Shown here: positions 19,503 to 34,184 of the stretch, one piece after another
How the letters are laid out: the number at the start of each line of letters is the position of its first letter
Position numbering within the stretch: the stretch's first letter is position 1
Source of the DNA: Gluconacetobacter takamatsuzukensis
GTDB lineage: Bacteria; Pseudomonadota; Alphaproteobacteria; Acetobacterales; Acetobacteraceae
Direction of reading: 5' to 3'
NCBI RefSeq assembly: GCF_014174275.1
Contig: NZ_JABEQK010000003.1
Location: 124,001-188,000 of the forward strand
Length of the DNA: 64,000 nucleotides
The notes under the pieces: generated by a model
What the model was told of the DNA's origin: nothing
What the model saw: only the letters and a program-made list of their open reading frames with translations
Database searches by the model: none
Program-made: the position numbers and the translations under genes

Positions 19503-21068
19503 CTAGCCGGCCATGGCAGGCCGGCTGTCCCGCGACGCGACGTCGCCCCGGGTTTCGAGATAGCGTTCCAGCCGCGCCCTGCCCGCCGCGTCGACATGCA
19601 GGCCCTGGCGCGACCGCCGCCACAGAATATCCTCCGCCGTCACGGCCCATTCCTGCGCGATCAGATACTCGACCTCCCGCGCCGTCAGCCCGCCGCCGAA
19701 ATCCTCGCCCAGGTCGGCCGGGCGTTGCGCGTCCCCCAGTATCTCCCACGCCAGCGTGCCGTAATTGCGCACCAGCCGCCACGCATCGTCCGCCGACAGG
19801 AAGGGCGCATGCGCCCGTAGGCGCGCCACGGCGGAATCGAACCCGCCCGGACCCAGGTCGCCGCCCGGCAGGGGCTGGCTGGCCGTCCATCCCGGCCCAC
19901 CCAGAACCGGCAGGCTGGGGGCCAGCTTTTCCAGCGCGTGCTCGGCAAGGCGGCGATAGGTCGTGATCTTGCCGCCGAAGATCGACAGCAGCGCGCCCTC
20001 GCCCGGCGGCGCGTCGACATCCAGCACATAATCGCGCGTCACGGCCGAGGCATTCTGCGCCGCATCGTCATAAAGCGGCCGGACCCCGGCATAGGACCAC
20101 ACGACATCCTCGGGCGTGACCGGCTTGCGGAAATACCGGTTCACACTCTCGCACAGATAGCGCACCTCGTCGTCGGCGATCCGGACCTCGCCCGGATCGG
20201 CCGCCCACGGAATGTCGGTGGTGCCGATCAGGGTGAAATCCCGCTCGTACGGGATGGCGAACACGATCCGGCGATCCGGATTCTGGAAGATATAGGCCTG
20301 CTCGCCTTCGAAGCAGCGCGGCACCACGATGTGGCTGCCCTTGACCAGCCGGACCTGCTTGGAGGTCCGGATCGCCAGCGTGTCGCGCAGCACCCGCTCC
20401 ACCCACGGGCCGGCGGCATTCACCACGCCGCGCGCGCGCACGGTTCGCCGGCCGGCGGCATCCTCGATCGTCGCTTCCCACACCCCATCGACGCGACGGG
20501 CCGCAACCAGCGCGGTGCGGGTGCGGATATCGGCGCCCTTCGCCCGCGCATCCATCGCATTCAGCACGACCAGCCGGCTGTCCAGCACCCGCCCGTCGGA
20601 ATAGATGAAGGCCCGCCGATAATCCGACCGCAGCGGCTTGCCCACCGGGTCCCGGTCCAGCCGCACCCCGCGCGAGCGCGGCAGCGTCATCCGCCCGCCC
20701 AGATGGTCGTACAGGAACAGGCCCATCCGCAGCATCCACGCCGGCCGCACCAATTTCGAATGCGGCAGCACGAACGAAAGCGGCCAGATGATATGCGGCG
20801 CGATCGCCAGCAGCCGCTCGCGCTCAATCAGCGCCTCGCGCACCAGGCGGAATTCGTAATATTCCAGATACCGCAACCCGCCATGAATCAGCTTGGTGCT
20901 GGCGGACGAGGTATGGGACGCCAGGTCATGCTGTTCCACCAGCAGCACCGACGCCCCCCGCCCGGCGGCATCCCGCGCGATGCCGACGCCGTTGATACCG
21001 CCCCCGACAATCAGCAGGTCATAGGGTTGCTGCGCGGCATTCGCCCCGCGCGATGGATCGGACAACAT
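19503..21068 (-). CDS. glpD: Aerobic glycerol-3-phosphate dehydrogenase (FAD)
   Basis: 521-residue membrane-associated flavoprotein that oxidises sn-glycerol 3-phosphate to dihydroxyacetone phosphate and feeds electrons to ubiquinone. The FAD-binding motif LLIVGGGINGVGIARDAAGRG is near residue 17. LEYYEFRLVREALIERERLL and LIGTTDIPW are typical of GlpD, and a C-terminal helical domain closes the protein. The start at MLSDPSRG follows a CAGGAGGAACGAGCC site. A GlpR-type operator lies 19 bases upstream of the start codon. Confidence 0.96.
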   Translation of the reverse strand: MLSDPSRGANAAQQPYDLLIVGGGINGVGIARDAAGRGASVLLVEQHDLASHTSSASTKLIHGGLRYLEYYEFRLVREALIERERLLAIAPHIIWPLSFVLPHSKLVRPAWMLRMGLFLYDHLGGRMTLPRSRGVRLDRDPVGKPLRSDYRRAFIYSDGRVLDSRLVVLNAMDARAKGADIRTRTALVAARRVDGVWEATIEDAAGRRTVRARGVVNAAGPWVERVLRDTLAIRTSKQVRLVKGSHIVVPRCFEGEQAYIFQNPDRRIVFAIPYERDFTLIGTTDIPWAADPGEVRIADDEVRYLCESVNRYFRKPVTPEDVVWSYAGVRPLYDDAAQNASAVTRDYVLDVDAPPGEGALLSIFGGKITTYRRLAEHALEKLAPSLPVLGGPGWTASQPLPGGDLGPGGFDSAVARLRAHAPFLSADDAWRLVRNYGTLAWEILGDAQRPADLGEDFGGGLTAREVEYLIAQEWAVTAEDILWRRSRQGLHVDAAGRARLERYLETRGDVASRDSRPAMAG

Positions 21069-21086
21069 GGCTCGTTCCTCCTGGAG

Positions 21087-21104
21087 ATGTTCGTAAACGA
21101 ACAT
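21087..21104. promoter_or_regulatory. GlpR operator at glpD
   Basis: ATGTTCGTAAACGAACAT, a perfect 8-bp inverted repeat with a 2-base centre. It matches the E. coli GlpR consensus ATGTTCGWTAWCGAACAT at all but one position. It overlaps the region just upstream of the glpD ribosome binding site, where a bound repressor would block transcription. The GlpR-family gene is about 375 bases away on the same strand. Glycerol 3-phosphate is the usual inducer. Confidence 0.8.
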
Positions 21105-21191
21105 AAAAGGAGAAATCAACGCAAAACGAAGCGATCCGGCGCGGTTCGGAACCCATAAAACCTGACCACATTGTCATGAAACCAGGCCGCG

Positions 21192-21209
21192 ATGTTCGCT
21201 TTAGAACAC
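21192..21209. promoter_or_regulatory. Possible second, degenerate GlpR site
   Basis: ATGTTCGCTTTAGAACAC keeps the left half-site perfectly and most of the right (GAACA). It lies 105 bases upstream of the near-perfect operator, a spacing that would allow cooperative binding by looping. Confidence 0.35.
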
Positions 21210-21268
21210 CTTCACGCGTTCGGGAAAGGCGCCAAAAATACCGATCCCGAACACCGAAGAGCCAGAAT

Positions 21269-21287
21269 TCCGCGCGGACCGCGCGGA
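21269..21287. repeat. 19-bp palindrome in the glpD upstream region
   Basis: TCCGCGCGG-A-CCGCGCGGA, perfect 9-bp arms around one base, between the degenerate GlpR site and palindromic element copy A. No gene covers 21069-21443; the spacer holds the GlpR sites, this palindrome and copy A. Role unknown. Confidence 0.5.
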
Positions 21288-21301
21288 TTCCAAGGACATT
21301 T

Positions 21302-21450
21302 CCCCAAAAATACGCGCGAACCAGCGAGTCGGCCGCAAAGCGCCACACCCAACGCGCGTTTCCGAGCACCGAAGCGGAGCAGCCTTACGGACCGTGAGTA
21401 TCGAAGCACAGGAATCGCGCGATGGATCGCCACCAGCCCGCGTTTACGGG
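21302..21450 (-). repeat. Dispersed palindromic element, copy A (after glpR)
   Basis: About 149 bp related to the elements at 24606 and 32136, in the direction of glpR transcription. Shared core blocks (minus strand) include TTCCTGTGCTTCGATACTCA, a small hairpin CGGTC-CGTAA-GGCTG, and GCTCCGCTTCGGTGCTCGGA. The small stem pairs through two G-U wobbles where copy B has Watson-Crick pairs. The outer arms are more degenerate than in copies B and C. The glpR stop codon TAA lies inside the left arm. Short open frames through it are by-products. Confidence 0.7.
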
Positions 21451-22223
21451 CCAACACCAGCGATGTGGAGGGCGACCTGGTGCTGCTCCAGCACTGCGCG
21501 CACCGATGGCGGTGGTGGCCGGTCGGTGAACAGCGCGTGGACGTCGGACAGATGCCCCACCCGCCCCATCGGCCGCCGCCCGAACTTGGTGTGATCGGCC
21601 AGCAGGAACACGGTGCGGGCATTGCGCATGATCGCTCGCGCAAGGTCGATCTCATCGAGGTCGAAATCCAGCAGCGTGCCGTCTTCCTCGATGCCGCTGA
21701 TGCCGATCACGCCGAAATCGGCGCGATACTGGTCGATCATCGCGGTTGCGGTCGGGCCGGTAATGCCCCCGTCATACGACCGCACCGTGCCGCCCGCGAC
21801 CACGACGCGAAAGCTGGATTCGGGCGCCAGGGTCGAGGCCACGTGCAGGTTGTTGGTGATCACCCGCAACCCCTGATGGTGCCGCAGCGCGCGCGCAAAG
21901 GCCTCGGTCGTCGTGCCGATATTGATGAACAGCGACGAATGGTCCGGAATTTCGCGGGCCGCGATCTGGCCGATCACTTCCTTTTCCCGCCGGTTGAGGA
22001 TCTGCCGCTCGGCATAGGCGATGTTCTCGATCGACGAGACCAGGCCCGCCCCGCCGTGATGCCGGGTCAACTGCCCGATCCCGGCCAGATGGTTCACATC
22101 GCGGCGGATCGTCTGCACCGCCACACGCAGCCGCTGCGCCAGTTCCTCATTGGCCACATAGCCGCGCGCGCGCACCAGCGACAGGATCTCGCGATAGCGT
22201 TCGTCGGTCGGCACCCCGGCCAT
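21444..22223 (-). CDS. glpR: DeoR/GlpR-family repressor, probable glycerol-3-phosphate regulator
   Basis: 259-residue regulator with an N-terminal DeoR winged helix (RYREILSLVRARGYVANEELAQRL, then VAVQTIRRDVNHL as recognition helix) and a C-terminal sugar-phosphate sensor domain (INIGTTTEAFARAL, DFGVIGISGIEEDGTLLDFD, VFLLADHTKFGR). It starts 4 bases after the recQ stop, so it is probably in a recQ-glpR transcript. The adjacent glpD-glpF-glpK genes and a GlpR-type operator support the name. Its last codons run into palindromic element copy A. Confidence 0.88.
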   Translation of the reverse strand: MAGVPTDERYREILSLVRARGYVANEELAQRLRVAVQTIRRDVNHLAGIGQLTRHHGGAGLVSSIENIAYAERQILNRREKEVIGQIAAREIPDHSSLFINIGTTTEAFARALRHHQGLRVITNNLHVASTLAPESSFRVVVAGGTVRSYDGGITGPTATAMIDQYRADFGVIGISGIEEDGTLLDFDLDEIDLARAIMRNARTVFLLADHTKFGRRPMGRVGHLSDVHALFTDRPPPPSVRAVLEQHQVALHIAGVGP

Positions 22224-22227
22224 GGGC

Positions 22228-24093
22228 TCAGCCGGCCTCGGCCAGAACCTGCAACACGGCGTCACCGTAGCGGTCCAGCTTGGAGGCCCCCACGCCCTTG
22301 ATCCGCCCCAGTTCGTCCAGCGTCGCCGGGCGCTCGATCGCGATGTCGTGCAACACGGCATCGTGGAAGATCACATAGGGCGGAATTTCCTGCTCGCGCG
22401 CCTCGCCCAGCCGCCAGGCGCGCAGGGCGGCGAACGGCCCCTCGGCCTCGGGCGGCAGGCTGACCGCCGGTCGCGCGGTGGCCGCCCGGCCGGCACTGCC
22501 CGACCGCGCGCCGCGCGTGGTCTTCAGTTCCTCGACCGGATCGTCGCGCAGCAGCACCTTTTCCTCGCCGCGCAGGATCGGGCGGGCCACCGGCTCGTTC
22601 AGCGCCAGCGCGTTATAGTCCCCGGTCACGCGAATCGCCCCGCGCGCGATCAGCTGGCGGATCACTCCGCGCCAGAACTGCTCCGGCCGGTCCTGGCCGA
22701 TACCGAACACGCTCAGCCGGTCGTGGCTGTAGCGCGCCCCCATCTCGTTCACCTTGCCGCGCAGGATGGACGCGACATGCACGGCGCCGAATTTCTGGCC
22801 GATGCGATAGATCGTGGACAGGACCTTCTGCGCCTCGACCGTCCCGTCGAACGAGGCGACCGGATTGCGGCAATTGTCGCAATGCCCGCACGCCGTGGCC
22901 AGCGTCTCGCCGAAACAACCCAGCAGCGCCTGGGTCCGGCACCCGGTGGTCTCGGTCAGGGTGATCATCGCTTCCAGCCGGCCGCTCATGATCCGCTTCT
23001 GGGCCTCCGGCGCGGCGGATTGCTCCAGCCAGTGCCGCGCCCGCGCGATATCGTCGCCGCCATACAGCAGCACGGTCTCCGACTTCTCACCATCGCGGCC
23101 GGCACGGCCGATCTGCTGGTAATAGGCTTCGGGCGACGAGGGCATGTCCAGATGCACCACCGTCCGCACGTCCGGCCGGTCGATCCCCATGCCGAAGGCC
23201 ACGGTCGCGACGATCACCACCGGCTCGCCCGAGCGGAAGCGGGCCAGCGCCGCACGCTTTTCGATCGGCGACAGCCCGGCATGGAACGGCAGCGCCGGCC
23301 AGTCGCGCTCGGCCAGCGACCGCGCCACGCGCTCGGTCTTGTTGCGGCTGCCGCAATAGACGATCGCGGCCTCGCCCGCATGCCGCCCCAGCACCTCCAG
23401 CACCTGGCGCAGTTCCGACGTCTTCGGCCGCACCGCGATATCCAGGTTGGGCCGATGGAAACTGGCGCGCAGCACCAGCGCATCGGGCATCGCCAGCGCG
23501 TCCAGAATATCGCTTTGCGTGCGCGGGTCGGCGGTCGCCGTCAGCGCGATGCGCGGCACACCGGGAAAATGCTCGGGCAGGCTGGCCAGCGCCCGGTATT
23601 CCGGCCGGAATTCATGCCCCCAGGCCGAGATGCAATGCGCCTCGTCGATCGCGATCACCGAGATCGTCAGCCGCGACAGCCGGTCCAGCGTGCCCGGCGA
23701 CAGCAGCCGCTCGGGCGAGACATACAGGATATCCAGCCGCCCGGCCGCCAGGTCCGCCCGCACCCGCGCCGCATCATCGGGCTCCAGTTCCGAATGCAGC
23801 GCCCCGGCATTCACGCCGACCTGCCGCAACGCCGCCACCTGGTCGTCCATCAGCGCGATCAGCGGCGAAATCACCAACCCGGTGCCCGGGCGCGCCAGCG
23901 CCGGCACCTGGTAGCAGATGCTCTTGCCCCCGCCGGTCGGCATCAGCACCAGGCAGTCGCGCCCGGCCATCACCGCCTCCACCGCCTCTTCCTGAAGGCC
24001 GCGGAAATCGGGGAATCCGAACACACGGGACAGGATCGCCCGGGGCGTATCCTCCCGCTCGGGCGCCGCCATGCCGGCGGCGGGCGATACCAT
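22228..24093 (-). CDS. recQ: ATP-dependent DNA helicase RecQ
   Basis: 621-residue 3'-5' helicase of recombination and repair. Order: superfamily 2 helicase core with Walker A (PTGGGKSICYQ, about residue 53) and the DEAH box in AIDEAHCISAWGHEF; helicase C-terminal part with VATVAFGMGIDRPDVR and QIGRAGRDG; the zinc-binding cysteines (CRTQALLGCFGE, ACGHCDNCRNP); an RQC winged helix; and a C-terminal HRDC domain (LDELGRIKGVGASKLDRYG). The start ATG at MVSPAAG has only a weak ribosome site; MAAPERE seven codons on is an alternative. The gene starts within about 25 bases of the OmpA-like gene stop. Confidence 0.95.
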   Translation of the reverse strand: MVSPAAGMAAPEREDTPRAILSRVFGFPDFRGLQEEAVEAVMAGRDCLVLMPTGGGKSICYQVPALARPGTGLVISPLIALMDDQVAALRQVGVNAGALHSELEPDDAARVRADLAAGRLDILYVSPERLLSPGTLDRLSRLTISVIAIDEAHCISAWGHEFRPEYRALASLPEHFPGVPRIALTATADPRTQSDILDALAMPDALVLRASFHRPNLDIAVRPKTSELRQVLEVLGRHAGEAAIVYCGSRNKTERVARSLAERDWPALPFHAGLSPIEKRAALARFRSGEPVVIVATVAFGMGIDRPDVRTVVHLDMPSSPEAYYQQIGRAGRDGEKSETVLLYGGDDIARARHWLEQSAAPEAQKRIMSGRLEAMITLTETTGCRTQALLGCFGETLATACGHCDNCRNPVASFDGTVEAQKVLSTIYRIGQKFGAVHVASILRGKVNEMGARYSHDRLSVFGIGQDRPEQFWRGVIRQLIARGAIRVTGDYNALALNEPVARPILRGEEKVLLRDDPVEELKTTRGARSGSAGRAATARPAVSLPPEAEGPFAALRAWRLGEAREQEIPPYVIFHDAVLHDIAIERPATLDELGRIKGVGASKLDRYGDAVLQVLAEAG

Positions 24094-24115
24094 CACAGGG
24101 TCCACGAGGGGGGCG

Positions 24116-24490
24116 TCAGGGTGCTGCAATCTCGATCTCGACCCGGCGCGACCCGACGGCGCCGTCCTCGTTCGAGGGCGCGCGCGGCCGCTGCCGGATG
24201 CGCTCGGCCCTGACCCCGTCCGCCACCAATTGCCCCGAAACCTTCTTCACCCGATCGATCGCCAGCAGCGCATCGGCCGACAGGTCACCATGTGCCGAGG
24301 CATAGCCTTCGACCGTCACCACCGATTGCGGATAATGCGCCGCCTGCTCCGCCGCATGCTGCACCACCCACACGGCCGGATCTTCCAGCGCCGTGGAATC
24401 ACGGGTGAAGAAGACGACATATTTCCGCGACGGACCATCGGCGCATCCCGCCAGCAGGCACAATCCCAGGAATAGAGAGAGGCGACGCAT
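24116..24490 (-). CDS. Small OmpA-like lipoprotein
   Basis: 124-residue protein with a lipoprotein signal (LGLCLLAGC, lipidated Cys16). The mature part is a short OmpA_C-like domain: VVFFTRDSTALEDPA, VTVEGYASAHGDLSADALLAIDRVKKVSGQL, and GSRRVEIEI at the end. Such domains usually bind peptidoglycan, so it probably links the outer membrane to the wall. It starts with a good AAGGGGA site. The gene lies upstream of recQ on the same strand. Confidence 0.75.
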   Translation of the reverse strand: MRRLSLFLGLCLLAGCADGPSRKYVVFFTRDSTALEDPAVWVVQHAAEQAAHYPQSVVTVEGYASAHGDLSADALLAIDRVKKVSGQLVADGVRAERIRQRPRAPSNEDGAVGSRRVEIEIAAP

Positions 24491-24605
24491 CGGCAGATCC
24501 CCTTGCTTAACCGGCTTACGGATGAATCCGCCGCCAACAATGCGGGAAAGTCAGCGACATATGGACAGGGAACCTTGGTGCCCCCTACCCACCCCCACGT
24601 CAACT

Positions 24606-24769
24606 GTTTATGCCCCCAGACGGGTTCTGGTGGCGATCCGACGCACGTTTCCTGTGCTCCGATGCTCACGGCCCGTAAGGCCGCTCCGCTTCGGTGCTCG
24701 GAAACGCACGCCGGGCGCGGCCCGTACCGGGCCGCTCTCGCTCACCAGAACCCGTCTGGGGGCATAAAC
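24606..24769 (+). repeat. Dispersed palindromic element, copy B (between cydC and the OmpA-like gene)
   Basis: 164-bp element bounded by perfect 26-bp inverted repeats (24606-24631 and 24744-24769, starting GTTTATGCCCCCAGACGG). Inside are CGGCC-CGTAA-GGCCG (24669-24683) and GCGGCCCG-TAC-CGGGCCGC (24717-24735), so the transcript could fold into several stacked stems. It fills the 318-base gene-free space 24491-24808; the remaining flanks show nothing recognisable. Related to copies A and C. Confidence 0.85.
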
Positions 24770-24808
24770 GCCGTACGTCCCTTGATGAAATGGACGCCCT
24801 CAATGCGT

Positions 24809-26506
24809 TCACACAGAAGCCGCGACCGCCTTTCCGTCCGACAGGCGCCAGACGCGGTCCAGTTTTTCCACGCCGACCAGGCGATGCGCGATCAGGATCA
24901 CCGTGCGGCCTGCCGTCACGTCGTAGAGCGTGGTCAGGAATTCGCGCTCGGTTTCGGCATCCAGGCCGGTCGCCGGCTCGTCCAGGATCAGGATCGGCGC
25001 GTCGGAGAGCAGGGTCCGCGCCAGCGCGATCCGTCGCCCCTGACCGCCCGAGAGCGACGCCCCGCCCTCGCCCAGCCACGCATCCAGCCCCTCGGGCAGC
25101 GCGCGGACCACATCGCCCACCTGCGCGCGATCCAGCGCCGTCCACAGATCGGCCTCGGTCGCATCGGGCCGGCCCAGCAGCAGATTGGCGCGGATCGTAT
25201 CGGCAAACAGATGCGTGGCCTGCGACAGCCACGCCATCCGCTGCCGTACCGACCCACTCTCCAGCGTCGCCAGATCCTCGCCACCCAGCAGGATCCGCCC
25301 CGCATCCGGCGCCGCAACCTTCAGCAGCAGCGCCGCCAGGGTCGATTTGCCGATCCCGGACGGCCCCAGGATCGCCACCCGCGCCCCCTGCCGGATCTCC
25401 AGCGTCAAACCGTCGAACACCGCCGGACGATCCGCCTGCCAGCGGAACGAAACCTGCTCGAAGCGGATATCGGTGCCCGACGGTGCCGGCCGCGTGCCCA
25501 CGCTGACCGGCGGTCCGTCCGTCTCGCCCACCGCGACCACCCGGGCCGCCGCGCGGCTGATGCCGCCGGCCAGCGCCCCCGCCCGCGTCAGGCCGCCCGC
25601 ACTCTCGAACCCCGCGATCACCAGAAACAGCAGCCCCACCCCGCGCGCCGCCGGGATCGGCCCCAGCCCCACGCCCAGGATCGCCGCCAGCACCGCCAGC
25701 ACCGCCGCCTGCCCGCACAGATAGGATGCCCCGCCCATCATCGCGAGCAGCCGCGCCTGCCGCGCCTGCCCCCGCAACAGCGCGTCGTCGCGTGCCCGCG
25801 CGTGTGACACCATGCGCCCTTCAGCCCCGAAGGCACGGATCTCGCGCAGCCCCGTCACCAGGTCCAGCACGCCGACCCGCAGGTCCGCCAGCCGATGCGT
25901 CAGGATCGCGGCCTCGCGCCGCCCCATCAGCGCCGCCGCCAGCGGCAGCACGAAGGCCCCGACCATGAACAGCCCGTCGACGATCACCGCCAGCCCCGGA
26001 TCGACCGGCAGAACCGCCATCACCAGAAACGGCAGGACCACACACGCCCCGGCCAGCGGCACCATGATCCGCAGATACAGCCCGTCCAGCGCCTCGACAT
26101 CCGACACCAGGCGCGACAGCAGGTCCCCCGCCCGGCGGAACCCCAGCCCGGCGGCAGCCCCGCCCGCAAGCCGGCGAAAGAACCAGACGCGAATATCGGC
26201 CAGCGCCCGGAACATCGCATCGTGCGTGACCAGCCGCTCGACATAGCGCAGCACCACCCGCGCCACGCCCGAGGCGCGCAGCAGCACCAGCCCGGCGACC
26301 GCACCGCCGAAGACCAGCCCCCCGATGCGCGCACCGGCGCCGCGCATCAGCACCAGCCCGGCCATCAGCGCCAGAAGCGACAGCACGCCCCCCGCCAGCA
26401 GCCGGGGCGCGCGCACCTTCCATAATCCAAGAATGCGCAGGACCGGGGTCAGGCCATCACGATCCTCGGCCGCGCGGCCGGAGAGGGATCTCTCAGACAT
26501 GGACAT
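24809..26506 (-). CDS. cydC: Thiol/heme exporter subunit CydC (ABC transporter)
   Basis: 565-residue ABC half-transporter with six N-terminal membrane segments and a C-terminal ATPase. The ATPase shows Walker A (GPSGIGKSTLA), signature LSGGQGRRIALAR and Walker B ILILDEPATGLD. CydC pairs with CydD to export glutathione/cysteine, and binds heme, for assembly of cytochrome bd. The start overlaps the cydD end by 14 bases (MSMSERSLS; a second ATG two codons on is also possible). cydAB is not in the window. Confidence 0.88.
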   Translation of the reverse strand: MSMSERSLSGRAAEDRDGLTPVLRILGLWKVRAPRLLAGGVLSLLALMAGLVLMRGAGARIGGLVFGGAVAGLVLLRASGVARVVLRYVERLVTHDAMFRALADIRVWFFRRLAGGAAAGLGFRRAGDLLSRLVSDVEALDGLYLRIMVPLAGACVVLPFLVMAVLPVDPGLAVIVDGLFMVGAFVLPLAAALMGRREAAILTHRLADLRVGVLDLVTGLREIRAFGAEGRMVSHARARDDALLRGQARQARLLAMMGGASYLCGQAAVLAVLAAILGVGLGPIPAARGVGLLFLVIAGFESAGGLTRAGALAGGISRAAARVVAVGETDGPPVSVGTRPAPSGTDIRFEQVSFRWQADRPAVFDGLTLEIRQGARVAILGPSGIGKSTLAALLLKVAAPDAGRILLGGEDLATLESGSVRQRMAWLSQATHLFADTIRANLLLGRPDATEADLWTALDRAQVGDVVRALPEGLDAWLGEGGASLSGGQGRRIALARTLLSDAPILILDEPATGLDAETEREFLTTLYDVTAGRTVILIAHRLVGVEKLDRVWRLSDGKAVAASV

Positions 26507-28247
26507 GCCCCTCCTCGGCGGGTGCCATCTGGCCCGTCACCTGTTCCGCGCACCGCAACGCCCCCAAGTCGAGGCACGGACCGGCAAACGCCCGCACCCC
26601 GGCCGCATGGCTGGACAGGATTACCGTCCGGCCCTGTGCCAGAATGCGCAGGCTGGCAAAGATCTCGCGCTCGGTCTCGGGGTCCAGATGCGCCGTCGGC
26701 TCGTCCAGCAGCAGCAGCGGCGCGTCCTTCAGATAGGCCCGCGCGATCGCCACTCGCTGCGCCTGGCCGCCCGACAGGCCGAACCCGCCTTCACCGATCG
26801 GCGTGTCCAGCCCCTGGGGCAGGTCGGCGGCGAAGCGGTCGACCGATGCCGCGCGCAGGGCGGCGCGCAAGGCCGCCTCATCCGCATCAGGGCGGGCAAA
26901 GAGAATATTCTCGCGCAGCGTGCCGGCAAACAGCACCGGCTTCTGTCCGATCCACGAGATCAGTCCGGACTGGGTCGCGGGCGCCATGGCGGCCAGATCC
27001 ACGCCCCCCACCATCACACGGCCGCTATCCGGCACGATAAAGCCCAGCAGCATCTCGATGATCGTCGACTTGCCGGCGCCCGAGGGCCCGACCAGGGTCA
27101 GGATCTCTCCGGCCCGGACGCTGAAGCTCAGGTCGGTCAGCACCGGCCCGCGCGCGGCATCCCAGGCGAAGGTGACGTGCTCGAAATCCACCGACACCCC
27201 ATCGTCCGACAGATGGGGCACCGCATCGCCGGCCGGCGTATCCGCCGCCGTCCCCTCCGGCAGCTCGCCCATGGCCGAGGCCGCACCGGACGCATGGGCG
27301 CGGTCCTGATAGGCCAGGGCCAGCGCGCGCAGCGGGGCAAAGAATTCCGGCACCAGCAGCAACACGAACAGGCTGCGCGCCGCCGCCTCGGCCAGCGGGC
27401 CCGACGCGCCACCCTGGCGAAGCACCGCCACGATCCCGCCATCCCGCACCACGATCAGCACCAGCGCCACCACCATCGCGCAGTCGATCGACGCCGACGA
27501 CAGAAACGCCACCCGCAGCACCTTCATGGTCCGCCGACGCAGTTCGTCGGCAGCCTGCGCCAGGCGCCCCGCCTCGTCATCGGCACGGTTCAGCAGCACG
27601 ATGGTGGCAATGCCGCGCACCCGGTCGAGAAAACGGGCCTGCAAGCGCGTCATGGCCAGAAACTGGTTGCGCGACGCCACGGCCGCCCCGATGCCGAAGA
27701 CGGCCTGCCCCACCGGCACGGCCAGGCCGCACAGGATCATGATCCCCGCCGCCCCCGGCTGCACCAGCGCCGCCAGCGCCGCGATCAGCCCCGGCACCGC
27801 GACCCACAGCACCGAGGCCGGAATCCAGCGCGCGAAAAACCCGTCCAGGGCCTCGATCCGGTCCACCGCCAGGGCCGTCAGTTCCGCGCTGTGCCGCCGC
27901 CGCAACAGGGCCGGCCCGCCCCGCAGGATGGCCTCCAGCACCGCGTTGCGCAGCCGCCTGCGGGCACTACGCCCGGCCCGTGCCGCGAAGACGTCTCCGC
28001 CGGCCATGAACAGGGCGCGCAGCACCGCCAGCCCCGCCAGGGCCGCCAGAAGGCTGCCGGCGCCCGGCCATGCGGCCATGCCGGAGCCGACCAGCCCCTT
28101 CGCCAGGATTGCCGCCACGCACCATGCCTGGCCGACAGCAACCAGCCCCGCCAGCATGCCGCAGGCCATGACGGGCATTGCCTGCCTGCGCCCCAGGCGC
28201 GATTGCGCCCGTGTCCAGGCACGCATCACCATTTTGTCACCGCTCAT
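26493..28247 (-). CDS. cydD: Thiol/heme exporter subunit CydD (ABC transporter)
   Basis: 584-residue partner of CydC, with the same layout: membrane domain (about residues 20-310) and ATPase with GPSGAGKST, LSGGQAQRVAIARAYL and LLLLDEPTAHLD. The two half-transporters form the CydDC heterodimer in the inner membrane. The ATG has an AGG seven bases upstream. An isolated 16-bp palindrome lies 41 bases before the start. It follows the stress-response sensor kinase on the same strand. Confidence 0.88.
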   Translation of the reverse strand: MSGDKMVMRAWTRAQSRLGRRQAMPVMACGMLAGLVAVGQAWCVAAILAKGLVGSGMAAWPGAGSLLAALAGLAVLRALFMAGGDVFAARAGRSARRRLRNAVLEAILRGGPALLRRRHSAELTALAVDRIEALDGFFARWIPASVLWVAVPGLIAALAALVQPGAAGIMILCGLAVPVGQAVFGIGAAVASRNQFLAMTRLQARFLDRVRGIATIVLLNRADDEAGRLAQAADELRRRTMKVLRVAFLSSASIDCAMVVALVLIVVRDGGIVAVLRQGGASGPLAEAAARSLFVLLLVPEFFAPLRALALAYQDRAHASGAASAMGELPEGTAADTPAGDAVPHLSDDGVSVDFEHVTFAWDAARGPVLTDLSFSVRAGEILTLVGPSGAGKSTIIEMLLGFIVPDSGRVMVGGVDLAAMAPATQSGLISWIGQKPVLFAGTLRENILFARPDADEAALRAALRAASVDRFAADLPQGLDTPIGEGGFGLSGGQAQRVAIARAYLKDAPLLLLDEPTAHLDPETEREIFASLRILAQGRTVILSSHAAGVRAFAGPCLDLGALRCAEQVTGQMAPAEEGHVHV

Positions 28248-28287
28248 GACCGCGACCTATAATCGAAGCGCCCAGCCAGGGACACCC

Positions 28288-28303
28288 ATTCCCGATCGGG
28301 AAT
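28288..28303. promoter_or_regulatory. 16-bp perfect palindrome upstream of cydD
   Basis: ATTCCCGATCGGGAAT in the 89-base space between the kinase stop and the cydD start. It could be an operator for cydDC or a hairpin ending the kinase transcript. Confidence 0.35.
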
Positions 28304-28336
28304 CGCCCCCGCCATCCGGCCACCCGCCATGCGGAT

Positions 28337-30139
28337 TCAGCGGACGAGATCGCCCGGTTCGTCCTCGTTCAGCGGGAACAGCAGGATATAGCGCGTCCCG
28401 TCCTCCTCGACGATCTTCAGGCTGCCGGACAATTGCCGCGCGAAGCCGCGGATCAGCTGCATGCCGATCCCGCTCCGCTCTTCCTCCGGCACCCGGTATC
28501 CGCCGGCAAGCCCGATCCCGTCATCGGCGATGTCCAGCCGCGCCTGTCTGGGCTCGACCCGCTCCAGCACCACGGAAATGGTGCCGCGCCGCCCGTCGGC
28601 AAAGGCATGCTTGATGGCGTTGCTGACGATCTCGGTAATGATCAGGGCCAGCGGCACCGCCTGGTCGGGCTTCAGCTCCAGCGTCGCCGCCTGCACCGAC
28701 AGGCCCAGCCGCCCGCCGCCCGCATGTCCCGCCGCCTGCATGATCTGGCTGCATAATTCGGTGACGAAATGCTCCATGTTCATGCTGAACAGCTCGCCTT
28801 CGGCATACAGGTACCGATGCAGGGTCGCCAGCGCCCGAACCCGGTCGCGCGCCTGCGCGAACTCCTCGCGCGCCTCGGCCTGCCGAATGCGGTTTGCCTG
28901 CAGATTCAGAAGCGATGCAACGATCTGCAGGTTGTTCTTCACCCGATGATGCATCTCCTTCAGCAGCAGCTCCTGCCTGACCGCCGCGCGCGCCAGGCGC
29001 CGCTCGTCGCGGGCCAGGCTGCGGGTCGCCTGGGTAAAGGCGCGTGCCAGCTGGCGGATTTCAACGGGCATCACCCCGCTCGCCTGTGCATCGAACACGC
29101 CGCCATCGGCCTGCCACCGCTCGACCGAACCGGTCAGCCGGCGCAGGGGCGCGACCAGCAGCGCATTGGCGCTCTGGGTCACGACGATCAGGCAGCAGCC
29201 CAGCAGGCTGACGATGACAAACAGCCAGATCACGAACATGACCAGCGCATGGGTTTCGGCCGGATTGCGGCGGGTCATCGTCAGCGCCGCCACGCCGCCC
29301 TCGATCGGGCCGAAGGCAAAGGCGGCATCCCCGACGCTCAGGGTCTGCCGGGTCCCGCGCTGGACGGAGGTCATGGCCCCGATCCAGCGCAGCACATCCG
29401 GCGGCGGCGGCCCGGCCGGCGCGCAATCGTCGCACAAGGGCAGGACCGTGTAATCGCGCCCGATGATCCAGGCGTCGATCGCCCCTTCCTTCTGCATGAA
29501 ATCCAGCCGGGGATCGCCGATCTGAAGATGGTGACGGCTCCAGATCACGGGCATGACGGCGGTCAGGAAGCCCGATCGCATGGCCCCCAGAGAATCGGCG
29601 ATCGATGTGGAAACCGTGACCCGGATATAGGAACGCCGGCCCGTGTTCGCCCCCGGGATATCGAGCGGCACCACCCGCACGTCGCCGCTGAAACGCGGCA
29701 GGTCCTCGTACGGCACCTGGTCGGGCAAGGGCAGCAGCGTGTCGCCATTGACCGCCAGCAGCACCCGCCCCTGGTCGTCCAGCAAGGCCAGCCGATAGAA
29801 TTCCCCGGTCAGCGAGCGCGCCATCTGCAGGGTCCGCACAAACCCTTCCTCGTCCAGCGACATGCGACTGACCGAAGACAGCAGGGCCCCGATATGATCG
29901 ACATCGTGGCGCACTTCCAGATCGATCCGGCTGACCGCCATATCGGCCCGGAACGCCGGCGCCTCAAGCGTATGGCGATAGCTGTTCCACGCCTGGAGGC
30001 TGGCGATAACGGCCATCGGCCCGGCCGCGCACAGGATGATGGCAATCATCCGCGCGCTGACCGTCCCGAACAGCCGGAAGAGCCAGCCGCCATACGGTAT
30101 CCCGCGCCTCGACCTGTTCCGACCGCCCCCCTTGTCCAT
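28337..30139 (-). CDS. HisKA_2-type sensor histidine kinase of the general stress response
   Basis: 600-residue inner-membrane kinase. A first membrane segment at about residues 31-50, a periplasmic sensing region to about 298, a second segment at about 299-321, then a HAMP-like linker. The dimerisation/phosphoacceptor motif is KEMHHRVKNNLQ (probable phospho-His398), the HisKA_2 class that commonly serves PhyR. The ATPase has EIVSNAIKHAF and DDGIGLAGG. Its ATG directly follows the nepR stop (TAG|ATG), so it is coupled to nepR and is the likely kinase of this circuit. The signal is unknown. Confidence 0.85.
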   Translation of the reverse strand: MDKGGGRNRSRRGIPYGGWLFRLFGTVSARMIAIILCAAGPMAVIASLQAWNSYRHTLEAPAFRADMAVSRIDLEVRHDVDHIGALLSSVSRMSLDEEGFVRTLQMARSLTGEFYRLALLDDQGRVLLAVNGDTLLPLPDQVPYEDLPRFSGDVRVVPLDIPGANTGRRSYIRVTVSTSIADSLGAMRSGFLTAVMPVIWSRHHLQIGDPRLDFMQKEGAIDAWIIGRDYTVLPLCDDCAPAGPPPPDVLRWIGAMTSVQRGTRQTLSVGDAAFAFGPIEGGVAALTMTRRNPAETHALVMFVIWLFVIVSLLGCCLIVVTQSANALLVAPLRRLTGSVERWQADGGVFDAQASGVMPVEIRQLARAFTQATRSLARDERRLARAAVRQELLLKEMHHRVKNNLQIVASLLNLQANRIRQAEAREEFAQARDRVRALATLHRYLYAEGELFSMNMEHFVTELCSQIMQAAGHAGGGRLGLSVQAATLELKPDQAVPLALIITEIVSNAIKHAFADGRRGTISVVLERVEPRQARLDIADDGIGLAGGYRVPEEERSGIGMQLIRGFARQLSGSLKIVEEDGTRYILLFPLNEDEPGDLVR

Positions 30140-30325
30140 CTAACCCCTGGTCTTGCGGTCTTCTTCGATCAGCCGCAGCAACTCCTCGGGAAGAGGCTCG
30201 GAAGCAACTCCATCGAAAAGGTCATGCAGCCCACGCTTCAGCCAAAGCTCGAACGGATCGTCCCGTTGGGTGGTCTTGCTGGTTTTCGACGGCCGCGTCG
30301 GACGGGAATCCTTGCGGGACGTCAT
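30140..30325 (-). CDS. nepR: Anti-sigma factor NepR
   Basis: 61-residue helical anti-sigma factor that holds EcfG until phosphorylated PhyR takes it away. The conserved core is DPFELWLKRGLHDLFDG followed by EPLPEELLRLIEED, which is the NepR signature; the N-terminal 20 residues are basic and disordered. The start at MTSRKDSRP was chosen for the AGGGA site and because it gives the usual NepR length; ATG codons 19-20 codons upstream are possible. The gene lies between ecfG and the kinase. Confidence 0.9.
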   Translation of the reverse strand: MTSRKDSRPTRPSKTSKTTQRDDPFELWLKRGLHDLFDGVASEPLPEELLRLIEEDRKTRG

Positions 30326-30484
30326 TGATGATCCCTGAGATCCACTAATACCCCGCCAACCCTCTGAAACCTGCGTCCCCATCATGCCGATGTCGGCGGA
30401 CAGTAAAACAGCCCGTGTCCTACCGTCCAGCCGTCCGACTCAGGAATTAACCGCCAGGGAAGCGAAGGGTTGCCGAGGGATGGA

Positions 30485-31060
30485 TCAGGTGCGTGCCGCT
30501 TCGGGCTTGCGCGGGGCCGTCCGCGCCGCCAGAAGGCCGCGCAGCCGGGCCACCCGCGCCTTGACCTGCGGCGCATCGTGGTCCTCGCCGATCATCCAGC
30601 TTTCCAGCTGCCGGCGGGCACGGAAGACCCGACTCTTGGCCGTACCCACCGCGCATCCGGTCGCCTCGGCCAGGTGCTCGTAGCTCATGCCGTGCAGCAC
30701 CACCATGATCAGCGCCTCCCGCTGGTCCTCCGGCAACCGATCCAGAGCCATCGCCAGGTCCTTCAGCGCCAGCCGGTCCTCATGCGGGGCCGTGGTCGCC
30801 AGCACCGACGCGGGGATATCCTCGATATCCGTGGTCTCCCGCCGCTTGCGCAGGTCGGAAATGAAGCGATTGCGCAGGATGCGGTGCATCCAGGCGGAAA
30901 AATTGGTCCCGGGGATGAAACTGTCCTGGGCGGCCAGCGCATTGCACACGGCATCCTGCACCAGGTCTTCAGCCATCGTTCGGTTCCGGGTCAGGGCAAG
31001 CGCCTGAACGCGCAGACGCGGGAGGATCGCGATGACCTGATCATGGAAATTATGTGCCAT
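30485..31060 (-). CDS. ecfG: ECF sigma factor EcfG (general stress response)
   Basis: 191-residue sigma factor with region 2 (LALTRNRTMAEDLVQDAVCNAL and FSAWMHRILRNRFISDLRKRR) and region 4 (LPEDQREALIMVVLHGMSYEHLAEATGCAVGTAKSR). This is the EcfG type controlled by NepR and PhyR. A C-terminal Ala/Arg-rich tail of about 30 residues follows region 4. GAGGAA lies before the ATG. About 160 bases separate it from nepR, and it faces phyR across a 342-base spacer. No good GGAAC-N16/17-CGTT promoter was found upstream. Confidence 0.92.
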   Translation of the reverse strand: MAHNFHDQVIAILPRLRVQALALTRNRTMAEDLVQDAVCNALAAQDSFIPGTNFSAWMHRILRNRFISDLRKRRETTDIEDIPASVLATTAPHEDRLALKDLAMALDRLPEDQREALIMVVLHGMSYEHLAEATGCAVGTAKSRVFRARRQLESWMIGEDHDAPQVKARVARLRGLLAARTAPRKPEAART

Positions 31061-31236
31061 TATTCTGTTCCTCGCTTGCCAAAACTCGCATCAGTGTAAT
31101 GTCTGGGCTGCGTTTTAATCATGACGAAGGCGTGAGAAGCGTTTAGAAAACCCTAATCCACCGTGAAAAACCCATTATGATCATCTTTAGGGCTCATTGT
31201 GGCAGCATCTGGGCACGCGCCTCATTGATTGCATGC

Positions 31237-31251
31237 ACCGCGTCACGCGGT
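31237..31251. promoter_or_regulatory. Palindrome 1 in the ecfG/phyR spacer
   Basis: ACCGCGT-C-ACGCGGT, perfect 7-bp arms. Its centre (31244) is 50 bases from that of palindrome 2. It lies in a 342-base gene-free divergent spacer (31061-31402). Candidate regulator site; protein unknown. Confidence 0.45.
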
Positions 31252-31284
31252 CTCGCGCGGCATCCCCTGCATGGTCCCGATGTC

Positions 31285-31303
31285 GCGACCGTGACACGGT
31301 CGC
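31285..31303. promoter_or_regulatory. Palindrome 2 in the ecfG/phyR spacer
   Basis: GCGACCGTGACACGGTCGC, perfect 9-bp arms around one base, with the same outer ACCG...CGGT as palindrome 1. About 100 bases before the phyR start. The rest of the spacer shows no clear promoter. Confidence 0.5.
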
Positions 31304-31402
31304 CGGACGAAGGGCAAGCCCGGTCTCTAGTTCCTCTTGCGGACAAATCTAACGCTGTCATGATCCACAACGTAACATGTTCCCTGTGGAGTTGACCGTT
31401 CA

Positions 31403-32137
31403 ATGCCCCTCTCGCGGCGGCAGGATCTGATCCGGGCCCTTCCCTATGCCAGGCGATACGCCCGCGCCCTGACGGGCAGCCAGCCCCGCGGCGATCTTCT
31501 GGTGGCCGAAAGCCTGCGGGGACTGGCCGCGACGGAAGCCGGGCCGATGCCGGCGCGACAATCCCTGTACCAGTGGATCTCGCGGCAATTCCGGCAGGCG
31601 CCGGCCTCCGAGGCCGAAACGCTGAACGTTCTGGAGCGCAAGCTCCTGCTGCTGACGTCGCTGGAGGAACTGACGATCGCCGACGCCGCGCGGATCGTGG
31701 ACCTGGGCGAGGCCGAGGCCGCCGAGATCCTCGCCCGCGCCCATGCCGGGCTGCGCAAGGTCGCCCAGACCTCCATCCTGATCATCGAGGACGAGCCGAT
31801 CATCGCGATGGATATCGAGGACCTGGTCCGCTGGTGCGGCCACCAGGTCGCCGGCGTGGCCGCGACCGAGGCCGACGCCGTGGAACTGGCCCGCCAGACC
31901 AAACCCGGCCTGATCCTAGCGGACATCAATCTCGGCGCGGGCGGCGACGGCGCCAACGCCGTCACCAGCATCCTGCGCCACCACATGGCCCCCGTCATCT
32001 TCGTCACCGCCTACCCGGAACGCCTGCTGACGGGCGAGGCGATCGAACCCGCCTTCGTCATCACCAAGCCGTTCGAGCCGATGACCCTGGCCATCGCCAC
32101 CTACCAAGCCGTAACCGGCGGCCCCCGGATCAACTGA
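31403..32137 (+). CDS. phyR: General stress response regulator PhyR
   Basis: 244-residue response regulator made of an N-terminal sigma-like domain (about 1-118, an EcfG mimic with LLLLTSLEELTIADAARIVDLG) and a C-terminal receiver domain (SILIIEDEPIIAMDIEDL, phospho-Asp174 in ILADINLG, and Lys in FVITKPF). When phosphorylated it binds NepR and frees EcfG. It is slightly shorter than many PhyR proteins. The stop codon overlaps the first bases of palindromic element copy C. GGAG precedes the ATG. Confidence 0.93.
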   Translation: MPLSRRQDLIRALPYARRYARALTGSQPRGDLLVAESLRGLAATEAGPMPARQSLYQWISRQFRQAPASEAETLNVLERKLLLLTSLEELTIADAARIVDLGEAEAAEILARAHAGLRKVAQTSILIIEDEPIIAMDIEDLVRWCGHQVAGVAATEADAVELARQTKPGLILADINLGAGGDGANAVTSILRHHMAPVIFVTAYPERLLTGEAIEPAFVITKPFEPMTLAIATYQAVTGGPRIN

Positions 32138-32277
32138 GACCTGCCTTGAGAGGCGCGCTGGCGGCGGTCCGGCGCGCGTTCCCTGTGCGCCGGTGCTCAC
32201 GGCCATGTAGGCCACACGCCGGCCGCGGCCCTGCGGGCCGCTCCCACTCGCCAGCCCGCCTCTCTGAGGCAGGTTTC
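32136..32277 (+). repeat. Dispersed palindromic element, copy C (after phyR)
   Basis: 142-bp element with imperfect 28/29-bp outer arms (32136-32163 and 32249-32277), an inner GGCC-ATGTA-GGCC (32201-32213) and GCGGCCC-TGC-GGGCCGC (32225-32241). It has the same orientation as phyR, and the phyR stop TGA lies in the first arm. The arm sequence differs from copy B, yet both arms changed together. The block CGGTCCGG-CGCGCGTTCCC recurs with changes just past the element (from about 32284). Confidence 0.8.
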
Positions 32278-32372
32278 GCGTCACGGTCCGGCACGCGTTC
32301 CCGGCGCGCCGTCTTCTCCCGACTGGCTTTCCCCCTTGCGCGCGGGGCTAGCCATGGTCCAGAACCCGGGTC

Positions 32373-34184
32373 ATGTCGCCTCCTCTCCTTCTTCTTCAGG
32401 ATATCACCCTGACGCTCGGCGGCGCCCCGCTGCTCAACGGTGCCGGCTTCGGCGTCTCGGCCGGCGAACGGATCTGCCTCGTCGGGCGGAACGGCAGCGG
32501 GAAATCCACCCTGCTGCGCATCGCGGCCGGCGAACTGGCGTCCGACGACGGCAAGCGCTTCCTCCAGCCCGGCACCACCGTGCGCTATCTGTTGCAGGAA
32601 CCCGACCTGTCCGGCTTCGCCACCACGCTGGACTATGTCCGCTCCGGCATGCCGCCCGACGGGCCCGATCACCGCGCCGCCCTTCTGCTGGGCGAGCTGG
32701 GCCTGACGGGCGAGGAAAACCCGGCCACCCTGTCGGGCGGCGAGGCCCGCCGCTGCGCCCTCGCCTGGGCGCTGGCACCCGAACCCGACCTGCTGCTGCT
32801 GGACGAGCCCACCAACCATCTCGACATGCCGACCATCGAGTGGCTGGAACGCGAATTGCTGTCCCTGTCGTCGGCCATGGTCATCATCAGCCATGACCGC
32901 CGCCTGCTGGAAACCCTGTCCCGCAGCGTCGTCTGGCTGGATCGCGGCATAACGCGGCGCCTCGACCAGGGCTTCGCCCGCTTCGAATCCTGGCGCGAAG
33001 AGGTGCTGGAACAGGAAGAGCGCGACGCCCACAAGCTGGACCGCCAGATCGCGCGCGAAGAAGACTGGATGCGCTACGGCGTCACCGCCCGGCGCAAGCG
33101 CAACGTGCGCCGCGTCGGCGAGCTCGCGGCCCTCCGCCAGGCCCGACGCGAGGCCGTGCGCGCCCCCGGCGGGGTGAAGATGCAGGCCAGCGAGGACGGC
33201 CTGTCCGGCAAGCTGGTCGCGGTGGCGGAGGGCGTGCACAAGGCCTACGGCGCCCGCACGGTCATCGACGGGCTGGACCTGCGCGTGCTGCGCGGCGACC
33301 GGCTGGGCATCGTCGGCGCGAACGGCGCGGGCAAGAGCACCCTGCTGCGGCTGCTGACGGGCCAGGACCAGCCCGATTCGGGCGAAATCCGAATCGGCAC
33401 CGCCCTGTCCGTCGTCACCCTCGACCAGCAGCGCCGGACGCTCGACCCGGCCCGCACCCTGGCCGATACGCTGACCGGCGGCGGCGGCGACATGGTCCAG
33501 GTCGGCAATGAGAAACGCCACGTCATCGGCTACATGAAGGATTTCCTGTTCCGTCCGGAACAGGCCCGGACCCCGGTCAGCGCCCTGTCGGGCGGCGAGC
33601 GGGGCCGGCTGATGCTGGCCTGCGCCCTCGCCCGCCCCTCCAACCTGCTGGTGCTGGACGAACCGACCAACGACCTGGACCTGGAAACGCTGGACCTGTT
33701 GCAGGAGATGCTGGACGCCTATGCCGGCACCGTGCTGCTGGTCAGCCACGATCGCGACTTCCTCGACCGGGTGGCGACCTCGGTGCTGCTGGCGGAAGGC
33801 TCCGGGCGGTGGGTTGAATATGCCGGCGGCTATAGCGACATGCTGGCCCAGCGCGGGGGCATGGCTCCGGCGGGCCGGGGCGACCGGCGCGCCGAGGCCG
33901 GCGCCTCCGCACCGGCACAGAAACGCTCGGAAAAGGGCCCGGCGCGCAAACTGTCCTACAAGGACCAGCACGCGCTGGACCGCCTGCCCGGCCAGATCGC
34001 GACCCTGGAGGAACAGATCGGCCGCCTGCGGACGATCCTGTCGGATGGCGGCCTCTACGCCCGCGACCCGGCGGCCTTCACCGCGACGACCGAGAAACTG
34101 GACCGCGCCGAGGCCGACCTGACGGCGGCCGAGGAACGGTGGCTGGAACTGGAAATGCTGCGCGAGTCGCTGGGTTCGTCCTGA
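32373..34184 (+). CDS. ABC-F family ATPase (Uup/EttA type)
   Basis: 603-residue soluble protein with two ABC ATPase domains and no membrane segments. Domain 1 has GRNGSGKSTLLRIAAG, LSGGEARRCALA and LLLLDEPTNHLD. Domain 2 has GANGAGKSTLLRLLTG, LSGGERGRLMLA and LVLDEPTNDLD. A charged linker (EEVLEQEERDAHKLDRQIA) joins them and a C-terminal coiled coil (LEEQIGRLRTIL to LTAAEERWLELEMLRESL) ends the protein, which fits Uup. ABC-F proteins act on ribosomes or, for Uup, DNA. The ribosome binding site is weak. Confidence 0.88.
   Translation: MSPPLLLLQDITLTLGGAPLLNGAGFGVSAGERICLVGRNGSGKSTLLRIAAGELASDDGKRFLQPGTTVRYLLQEPDLSGFATTLDYVRSGMPPDGPDHRAALLLGELGLTGEENPATLSGGEARRCALAWALAPEPDLLLLDEPTNHLDMPTIEWLERELLSLSSAMVIISHDRRLLETLSRSVVWLDRGITRRLDQGFARFESWREEVLEQEERDAHKLDRQIAREEDWMRYGVTARRKRNVRRVGELAALRQARREAVRAPGGVKMQASEDGLSGKLVAVAEGVHKAYGARTVIDGLDLRVLRGDRLGIVGANGAGKSTLLRLLTGQDQPDSGEIRIGTALSVVTLDQQRRTLDPARTLADTLTGGGGDMVQVGNEKRHVIGYMKDFLFRPEQARTPVSALSGGERGRLMLACALARPSNLLVLDEPTNDLDLETLDLLQEMLDAYAGTVLLVSHDRDFLDRVATSVLLAEGSGRWVEYAGGYSDMLAQRGGMAPAGRGDRRAEAGASAPAQKRSEKGPARKLSYKDQHALDRLPGQIATLEEQIGRLRTILSDGGLYARDPAAFTATTEKLDRAEADLTAAEERWLELEMLRESLGSS

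Follow-up and report, generated by a model that had tools for sequence, protein, structure and literature searches.

A Gluconacetobacter MITE family at TNA targets and stop codons, very probably moved by an IS5-family (IS1031-like) transposase

Three palindromic repeats in a 64,000-nt stretch of the Gluconacetobacter takamatsuzukensis genome (the window; contig NZ_JABEQK010000003.1, positions 124,001 to 188,000) very probably belong to a MITE family of Gluconacetobacter that is moved by an IS5-family, IS1031-like transposase into TNA targets. MITEs are short non-coding elements that are moved in trans by an intact IS, and MITEs of IS5-family (IS1031-group) IS are known as a kind. The element inserts: TNA duplications and clean empty sites show insertion. 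As a MITE, the family is of an ordinary kind, and the literature searched yielded no description of it. In the mechanism that we propose, a transposase of the IS5-family, IS1031-like type would recognise the terminal repeats and insert the element at a TNA, which is thereby doubled. A TGA or TAA stop codon would offer a safe TNA in dense coding DNA, and insertions there should be harmless, as the duplication rebuilds the stop. The left TNA copy would then be kept by selection while the right copy decays. After insertion, copies would drift, lose inner pieces, form tandems, and exchange cores, and pairing between the arms would be kept largely through the descent of both repeats from a single parent copy, and some mirrored change would follow later.

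The three copies of the window and the extent of the family

The repeats were found where the preliminary description had placed them, namely at 21302-21450 on the minus strand (copy A), 24606-24769 (copy B), and 32136-32277 (copy C), and they have a core of about 120 nt in common. A full copy of the family is about 165 bp long, with a folded core of 120 bp between terminal inverted repeats of 21 bp (consensus GAGCCTGNCCGGAAATGCGCG). The features in the window are as follows:

24606..24626, plus strand: left terminal inverted repeat of copy B (GTTTATGCCCCCAGACGGGTT), diverged from the GAGCCTGNCCGG consensus
24627..24748, plus strand: conserved core of copy B, 122 nt, three-stem fold
24749..24769, plus strand: right terminal inverted repeat of copy B
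32135..32137, plus strand: TGA stop of the response-regulator gene 31403-32137, which is the TNA target left of copy C
32138..32275, plus strand: copy C, i.e., arm (GACCTGCCTTGAGAGGCGCG), core with shortened central stem, and arm
21317..21436, minus strand: core of copy A, outer arms degenerate or absent, 5' side formed by the end of a DeoR-like gene
21444-21446: TAA stop of the DeoR-like gene at copy A

The arms of copy B pair perfectly, as had been described, over 27 nt (24606-24632 with 24743-24769) rather than 26 bp, and this copy folds at -118.9 kcal/mol (z -11.5). Its flanks read ACT on the left and GCC on the right; the duplication is thus not intact. The arms of copy C indeed have another sequence than those of copy B and still pair, with small defects (fold z -5.8). 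Copy A retains the core together with the two G-U pairs seen earlier in its inner stem, whereas paired outer arms are absent, its fold is ordinary (z -0.29), and its 5' side is host coding sequence including the gene's own TAA. The right flank of copy C reads TCG, versus TGA on the left, and neither copy B nor copy C has an identical TNA on both sides. Site C is also occupied in G. asukensis, G. tumulicola, and G. aggeris, and is without the core in G. liquefaciens, G. dulcium, G. diazotrophicus, G. sacchari, and G. tumulisoli; by eye, the TGA at 32135..32137 lines up with the stop codon in relatives that lack the core (L089, L102, and L091). Site C in G. liquefaciens and G. dulcium had raised the idea that the arms arose by inverted duplication of host DNA, which was set aside, as these letters are also compatible with a decayed element. 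The CydC-like gene that neighbours copy B is present in eight species (G. asukensis, tumulicola, aggeris, liquefaciens, dulcium, diazotrophicus, sacchari, and tumulisoli). In G. tumulicola (L087) and G. asukensis (L086), the site of copy B holds a stack of several copies, full and partial; by eye, this stack lies between the CydC-like gene and an OmpA-like gene, near the apparent promoter of the latter.

The family that had been proposed from three copies extends to at least 44 element copies in its own genome. A blastn search with copy B gave 48 places there, i.e., these 44 copies and four self-arms or fragments; 43 of the copies matched over at least 115 nt and copy A over 95 nt. The number 44 is a floor, with 40 of the 130 first-look candidates scored and copy C not among the matches. 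The inner-arm pattern occurs at 80 places in the same genome versus three for the reversed control, and among 20 of these regions that were inspected several are internally deleted, one of them (L049) keeping only the small hairpin. Across 60 genomes, the element was matched in 21 at E 0.001, namely in all 14 Gluconacetobacter genomes and, with weaker E-values, in seven of the 46 others. Tandem arrays with a period of about 165 bp are found in the G. takamatsuzukensis genome (L006/L012, L018/L035, L016/L033, and L023/L028) and in the relatives G002, G005, G007, and G010. At site s3, arm types are mixed in G002 and G007, as expected from recombination in tandem arrays.

Insertion into TNA, stop codons, and the IS5-type partner

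Target preference was assessed in 163 copies from five genomes, i.e., the 43 own copies and the best 30 of the 48-50 listed in each of G005, G010, G002, and G007, a set that leans towards copies close to the query, as 40 candidates were scored per genome. At the predicted three bases, TNA stands on the left of 82 of the 163 copies and on the right of 38, while the other 19 offsets scanned per side gave 0-12 (left) and 0-15 (right). A left copy that is protected and a right copy that decays would fit these unequal numbers. Recent-looking copies show one and the same trinucleotide at either edge. The left and right 3-mers agree in 25 of the 163 copies, versus a mean of 10.7 and a maximum of 20 in 2000 shuffles, and in 21 of those copies the shared 3-mer is TNA (TGA 14, TCA 4, and TTA 3). 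Identical TNA on both sides is thus limited to 21 of the 163 copies, one of which (L246) lies in a tandem array.

Empty sites in sister species were compared for seven copies, of which two were clean, two approximate, one mixed, and two uninformative. In G005, copy L263 reads TTA[element]TTAgagacggcc, and the empty counterpart in G010 (L400) reads TTTAgagacggcc, which is letter-exact; the element is absent from this site in G002, G004, and G007 as well. A decayed family fragment lies farther downstream of the empty site in G010. The second clean case, L259 of G005, reads aattcTGA[..]TGAcatcg, and its G010 counterpart L396 reads aattcTGAtatcgg, in register with substitutions; L396, L410, L412, and L413 all have a single TGA where L259 has TGA[element]TGA, with substitutions in the flanks. 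Empty sites agree less exactly for L320 and L329. At the site of L306, G010 and G005 have no element, G007 has a remnant, and G004 has a different small hairpin. The latter (L395) is a 35-bp hairpin with 16-bp perfect arms (GAGGCTGCTTTAAAAG) around CGC and a TGA on both sides; it shares the stop codon that bears the large element in G002, as a second, tiny MITE type at a re-used landing site. The two uninformative cases were L302, with truncated copies in both relatives, and L258, the flank of which did not align. When 11 sites of the G. takamatsuzukensis genome were compared with relatives, a core match was found in 32 of 109 orthologous places, with 0/11 for s7 and s12 and with short remnants left at s7 in some relatives. 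Insertion of the core into the loops of terminator hairpins was considered as well and rejected, as there are recent copies with near-consensus arms and clean empty sites without a hairpin (by eye).

Most left arms begin at a stop codon because TGA or TAA would serve as the TNA target. Counting from the core, 24 of the 43 own copies have a stop trinucleotide at -24 and 32 have one at -24 to -22, against a background of 0-2 per position from -40 to -25; two further peaks lie inside the arm, at -16 (10 copies) and -10 (16 copies). In the 163-copy set, 102 copies have the end of an open sense frame of 100 codons or more at their left edge, six have that of an antisense frame at their right edge, and 55 have neither; moved windows gave 8 (sense) and 17 (antisense) of 652. 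By eye, the stop codon aligns between occupied and empty genomes at sites s2, s5, s6, s7, s12, and C, which marks it as part of the host gene. Three relatives occupied at site C have lost the stop codon at that point. The symmetrical TNA target does not explain the strong sense orientation. One copy (L008) begins at the last base of a tRNA-Gly (ccc) gene (1410-1483). Integron attC-like sites, an idea that arose from the position behind stop codons, were made needless by the TNA duplications.

The element is too short to encode a transposase. DUF4096 (IS5-type) transposases are present in 13 of the 14 genus genomes, with three matches in that of G. takamatsuzukensis; in G001 none was found at E 0.001, although this genome carries the element. 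Five of the 30 IS loci inspected have paired ends and a TNA duplication (TTA, TAA, or TCA), with lengths of 883-930 bp; two lie in the G. takamatsuzukensis genome (L371 and L391), two in G003 (L380 and L389), and one in G012 (L390). Three of them are:

L371, G. takamatsuzukensis genome: TTA[GAGACTGTTTGGAAAA...]TTA, 883 bp
L391, G. takamatsuzukensis genome: TAA...TAA, 897 bp
L380, G003: TTA...TTA, 930 bp

The 278-aa proteins of all three match NF033580, IS5 family transposase, at E 2e-67 to 2e-76, and no PDB relative of the L371 transposase was found by sequence at E 0.01. As described in PMC12016507, the IS1031 group prefers TNA and makes a 3-bp repeat, and the ends of one member are GAACCTGTCTAGTATCT. 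From their ends, length, and duplication, the L371-type IS probably belong to the IS1031 group, while the model match itself says IS5 family. The ends of IS5 copies (GAGCCTGTTTGGGAAA, GAGCCTGTTTGAGAAT, and GAGCCCGATCCGAAAG) resemble the MITE arms. The closest match is between MITE arm GAGCCTGTTTGGAAATG (L343 and L015) and the right end of L371, GAGCCTGTTTGGGAAAT, while the commoner MITE arm GAGCCTGACCGG clearly agrees with the L371 end only in the first seven letters (by eye). No IS was found with ends that match the commonest arm, GAGCCTGACCGGAAATGCGCG, over its whole length, and copies with GTTT-type arms, copy B included, do not start with GAG.

Paired stems and their explanation

The covariation that the preliminary description had seen in three copies holds up in a larger sample. 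In 45 aligned copies, 95.5% of the cells pair versus 86.2% in shuffles (sd 0.3), and 31 of 57 pairs have changed on both sides versus 19.3 expected, which exceeds all 500 shuffles, in a structure that was derived from the same alignment and is thereby favoured. Two-sided change affects 15 of the 17 outer-arm pairs, and pairing falls to 39-43% when the partner is slid by one column. Letters have truly changed with pairing kept, and the two outcomes that the preliminary description had named as refuting it, namely no further copies and no significant covariation, did not occur. Since the arms are terminal inverted repeats of a transposable element, their pairing is not in itself evidence of selection on RNA. 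From the proposal that kept pairing reflects selection on structure, the paired change stands, and a selected sense RNA is not supported, as G-U pairs are not commoner than A-C mismatches.

A structured RNA at mRNA 3' ends (terminator, stability hairpin, or riboregulator), with pairing kept by RNA selection, is improbable as the explanation. It would account for the sense position right behind the stop codon (102 of 163 versus 6 antisense, with backgrounds of 8 and 17 of 652), and the strong covariation, the very stable folds of copies B and C, and the start of L008 at the 3' end of the tRNA-Gly gene also count for it. These stand against the TNA duplications and clean empty sites, which mark insertion, and against the scarcity of core matches at orthologous sites in relatives (32 of 109). 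On the sense strand, G-U amounts to 140 versus 216 for A-C (162 copies, 56 pairs), or to 46 versus 51 by distinct column and type; 162 of the 163 copies were used, and as copies are related, p-values are unreliable and the ratio is no clean test. In the 43 own copies (from the 45 aligned, with A and C of the window omitted), the sense G-U:A-C counts are 25:24 in the arms and 19:31 in the core. Read on the antisense strand, the 162 copies give G-U over A-C at 216:140, which counts for RNA, and an antisense RNA at the elements is possible. In the small core hairpin, A-C prevails over G-U by 30 to 5 on the sense strand of the 162 copies and the reverse holds on the antisense strand, which may be shared ancestry. 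The suggested terminator finds no U-run behind the right arm: counted from the core in 163 copies, positions 23-30 have T fractions of 0.05-0.28, and the high values at positions 20 (0.74) and 22 (0.71) come from the arm end and the duplication. A riboregulator or other selected sense RNA is likewise not supported by the G-U and A-C counts, and no Rfam match falls on the copies: the covariance models gave a single match at E 0.86 in window positions 20000-34000, at 22840-22922, away from the copies.

The wording "REP/MITE-like" can be narrowed to its second half, given the terminal inverted repeats, TNA duplications, and empty sites. A REP/REPIN-type element moved as a single-strand hairpin by a Y1 (RAYT) transposase is highly improbable: the repeats are palindromic, intergenic, numerous, and near gene ends, as that explanation would have it, yet Y1/RAYT (PF01797) was matched in 0 of the 14 genus genomes, while five of 14 control genomes were positive, and the 3-bp duplications are not expected for this type of transposition and count against it.

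MITE origin alone does not predict the mirrored changes in inner stems, which possibly reflect a DNA-level process. On top of that origin, it is conceivable, and tentatively entertained here, that pairing of the stems is maintained mainly because one arm is copied from the other at the DNA level, whether by ectopic gene conversion or by template switching within a long palindrome; this is compatible with the MITE explanation. The missing G-U excess on the sense strand counts for such copying, and the antisense G-U excess is not predicted by it. Among eight ortholog pairs of G002-G007, nine positions changed in both arms and all nine are mirrored (1.0 expected); among nine pairs of G005-G010, four changed in both arms and three are mirrored (0.4 expected), in counts from which tandem copies, pairs whose flanks matched over a short stretch, and one G005-G010 pair lacking the right arm were omitted. 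Two mirrored changes occur with cores at least 94% identical (L250/L284, 99%; L268/L296, 95%) and seem to have happened in place. A comparison of L261, L293, and L021 shows a run of 3-4 letters that differs at first in the right arm and then in both arms (by eye). Against this, most mirrored changes are in pairs whose cores diverge as paralogs do, where replacement or tandem-array loss also fits. Moreover, in 13 sister pairs with cores at least 94% identical, 10 changes are one-sided and two mirrored (by eye), so that one-sided change is commoner at short times; independence would give about 0.16 double changes (by hand).

The wider pattern of divergence is in keeping with exchange between copies. 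Paralogs have a left-arm identity of 0.61-0.62 and a core identity of 0.87, and between G. takamatsuzukensis and the four other genomes arms differ by 15-30% and flanks by 8-10%. In 33 ortholog pairs picked by hand (five with tandem or broken arms omitted), the same-site core of G. takamatsuzukensis and G005 or G010 ranks first in 2 of 19 pairs, so that paralogs are mostly at least as close, while between the sisters G005 and G010 it ranks first in 12 of 14. Copies seem to have been often replaced, or their cores exchanged. The former comparison also weakens fast co-evolution of the arms as the sole cause of the mirrored differences. At one locus of these sister species (L262 in G005, L274 in G010), the flanks are 97% identical and the outer arms nearly alike, while the core is 82% identical; here the core has apparently been exchanged. 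Short remnants in G006 (L161) and in G004 and G007 (L201 and L200) have a core piece reversed inside the same arms (by eye), which suggests inversion between inverted repeats.

Relation to known repeats and implications

The family resembles MITEs of IS5-family (IS1031-group) IS in that it is short and non-coding, has terminal inverted repeats like those of resident IS5-like elements, makes a 3-bp TNA duplication, and is present in many dispersed copies, as far as that group is described in the source consulted. It differs from this kind in the long folded core of all full copies, in the position of most copies at stop codons in one orientation, and in arms that diverge in mirrored fashion. 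Small bacterial repeats such as Correia/NEMIS, RUP, and others are, in the account of PMC2229807, below 200 bp and mostly have terminal inverted repeats and target duplications, all of which the present element shares; those repeats mostly have TA ends and are A+T-rich, whereas the Gluconacetobacter element has GAG..CTC ends, targets TNA, and is G+C-rich. YPAL/RU-2 of Yersinia is also similar as described there, with 168 bp, no TA ends, no A+T-richness, and target duplications, but its duplications span 3-26 bp and its repeats are internal, versus a 3-bp TNA and terminal repeats here. With REP/REPIN the family has the palindromic, intergenic, and multi-copy character in common; unlike them, it has a unit of about 165 bp with terminal inverted repeats and a duplication, and the 14 Gluconacetobacter genomes are without a Y1/RAYT match.

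By its naming and its link to a resident IS type, this large Gluconacetobacter repeat family may aid annotation and typing. Covariation among genomic repeats can beat every shuffle and yet accompany transposon ends, which calls for caution in RNA discovery pipelines. A more speculative idea, and on balance an unlikely one, is that the element, having landed at a stop codon in one orientation, is retained there as a ready-made 3' end while its stems stay paired through DNA copying between the arms, leading to RNA-quality covariation without RNA selection; if true, the element would be a natural counter-example to covariation as proof of functional RNA. The stop-codon landing, the orientation, and the mirrored stems are worth specialist attention. 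Lastly, an element that lands at stop codons has a simple means of spreading through a gene-dense genome while leaving genes intact, and the orientation bias thereby becomes a question that experiments can address cleanly.
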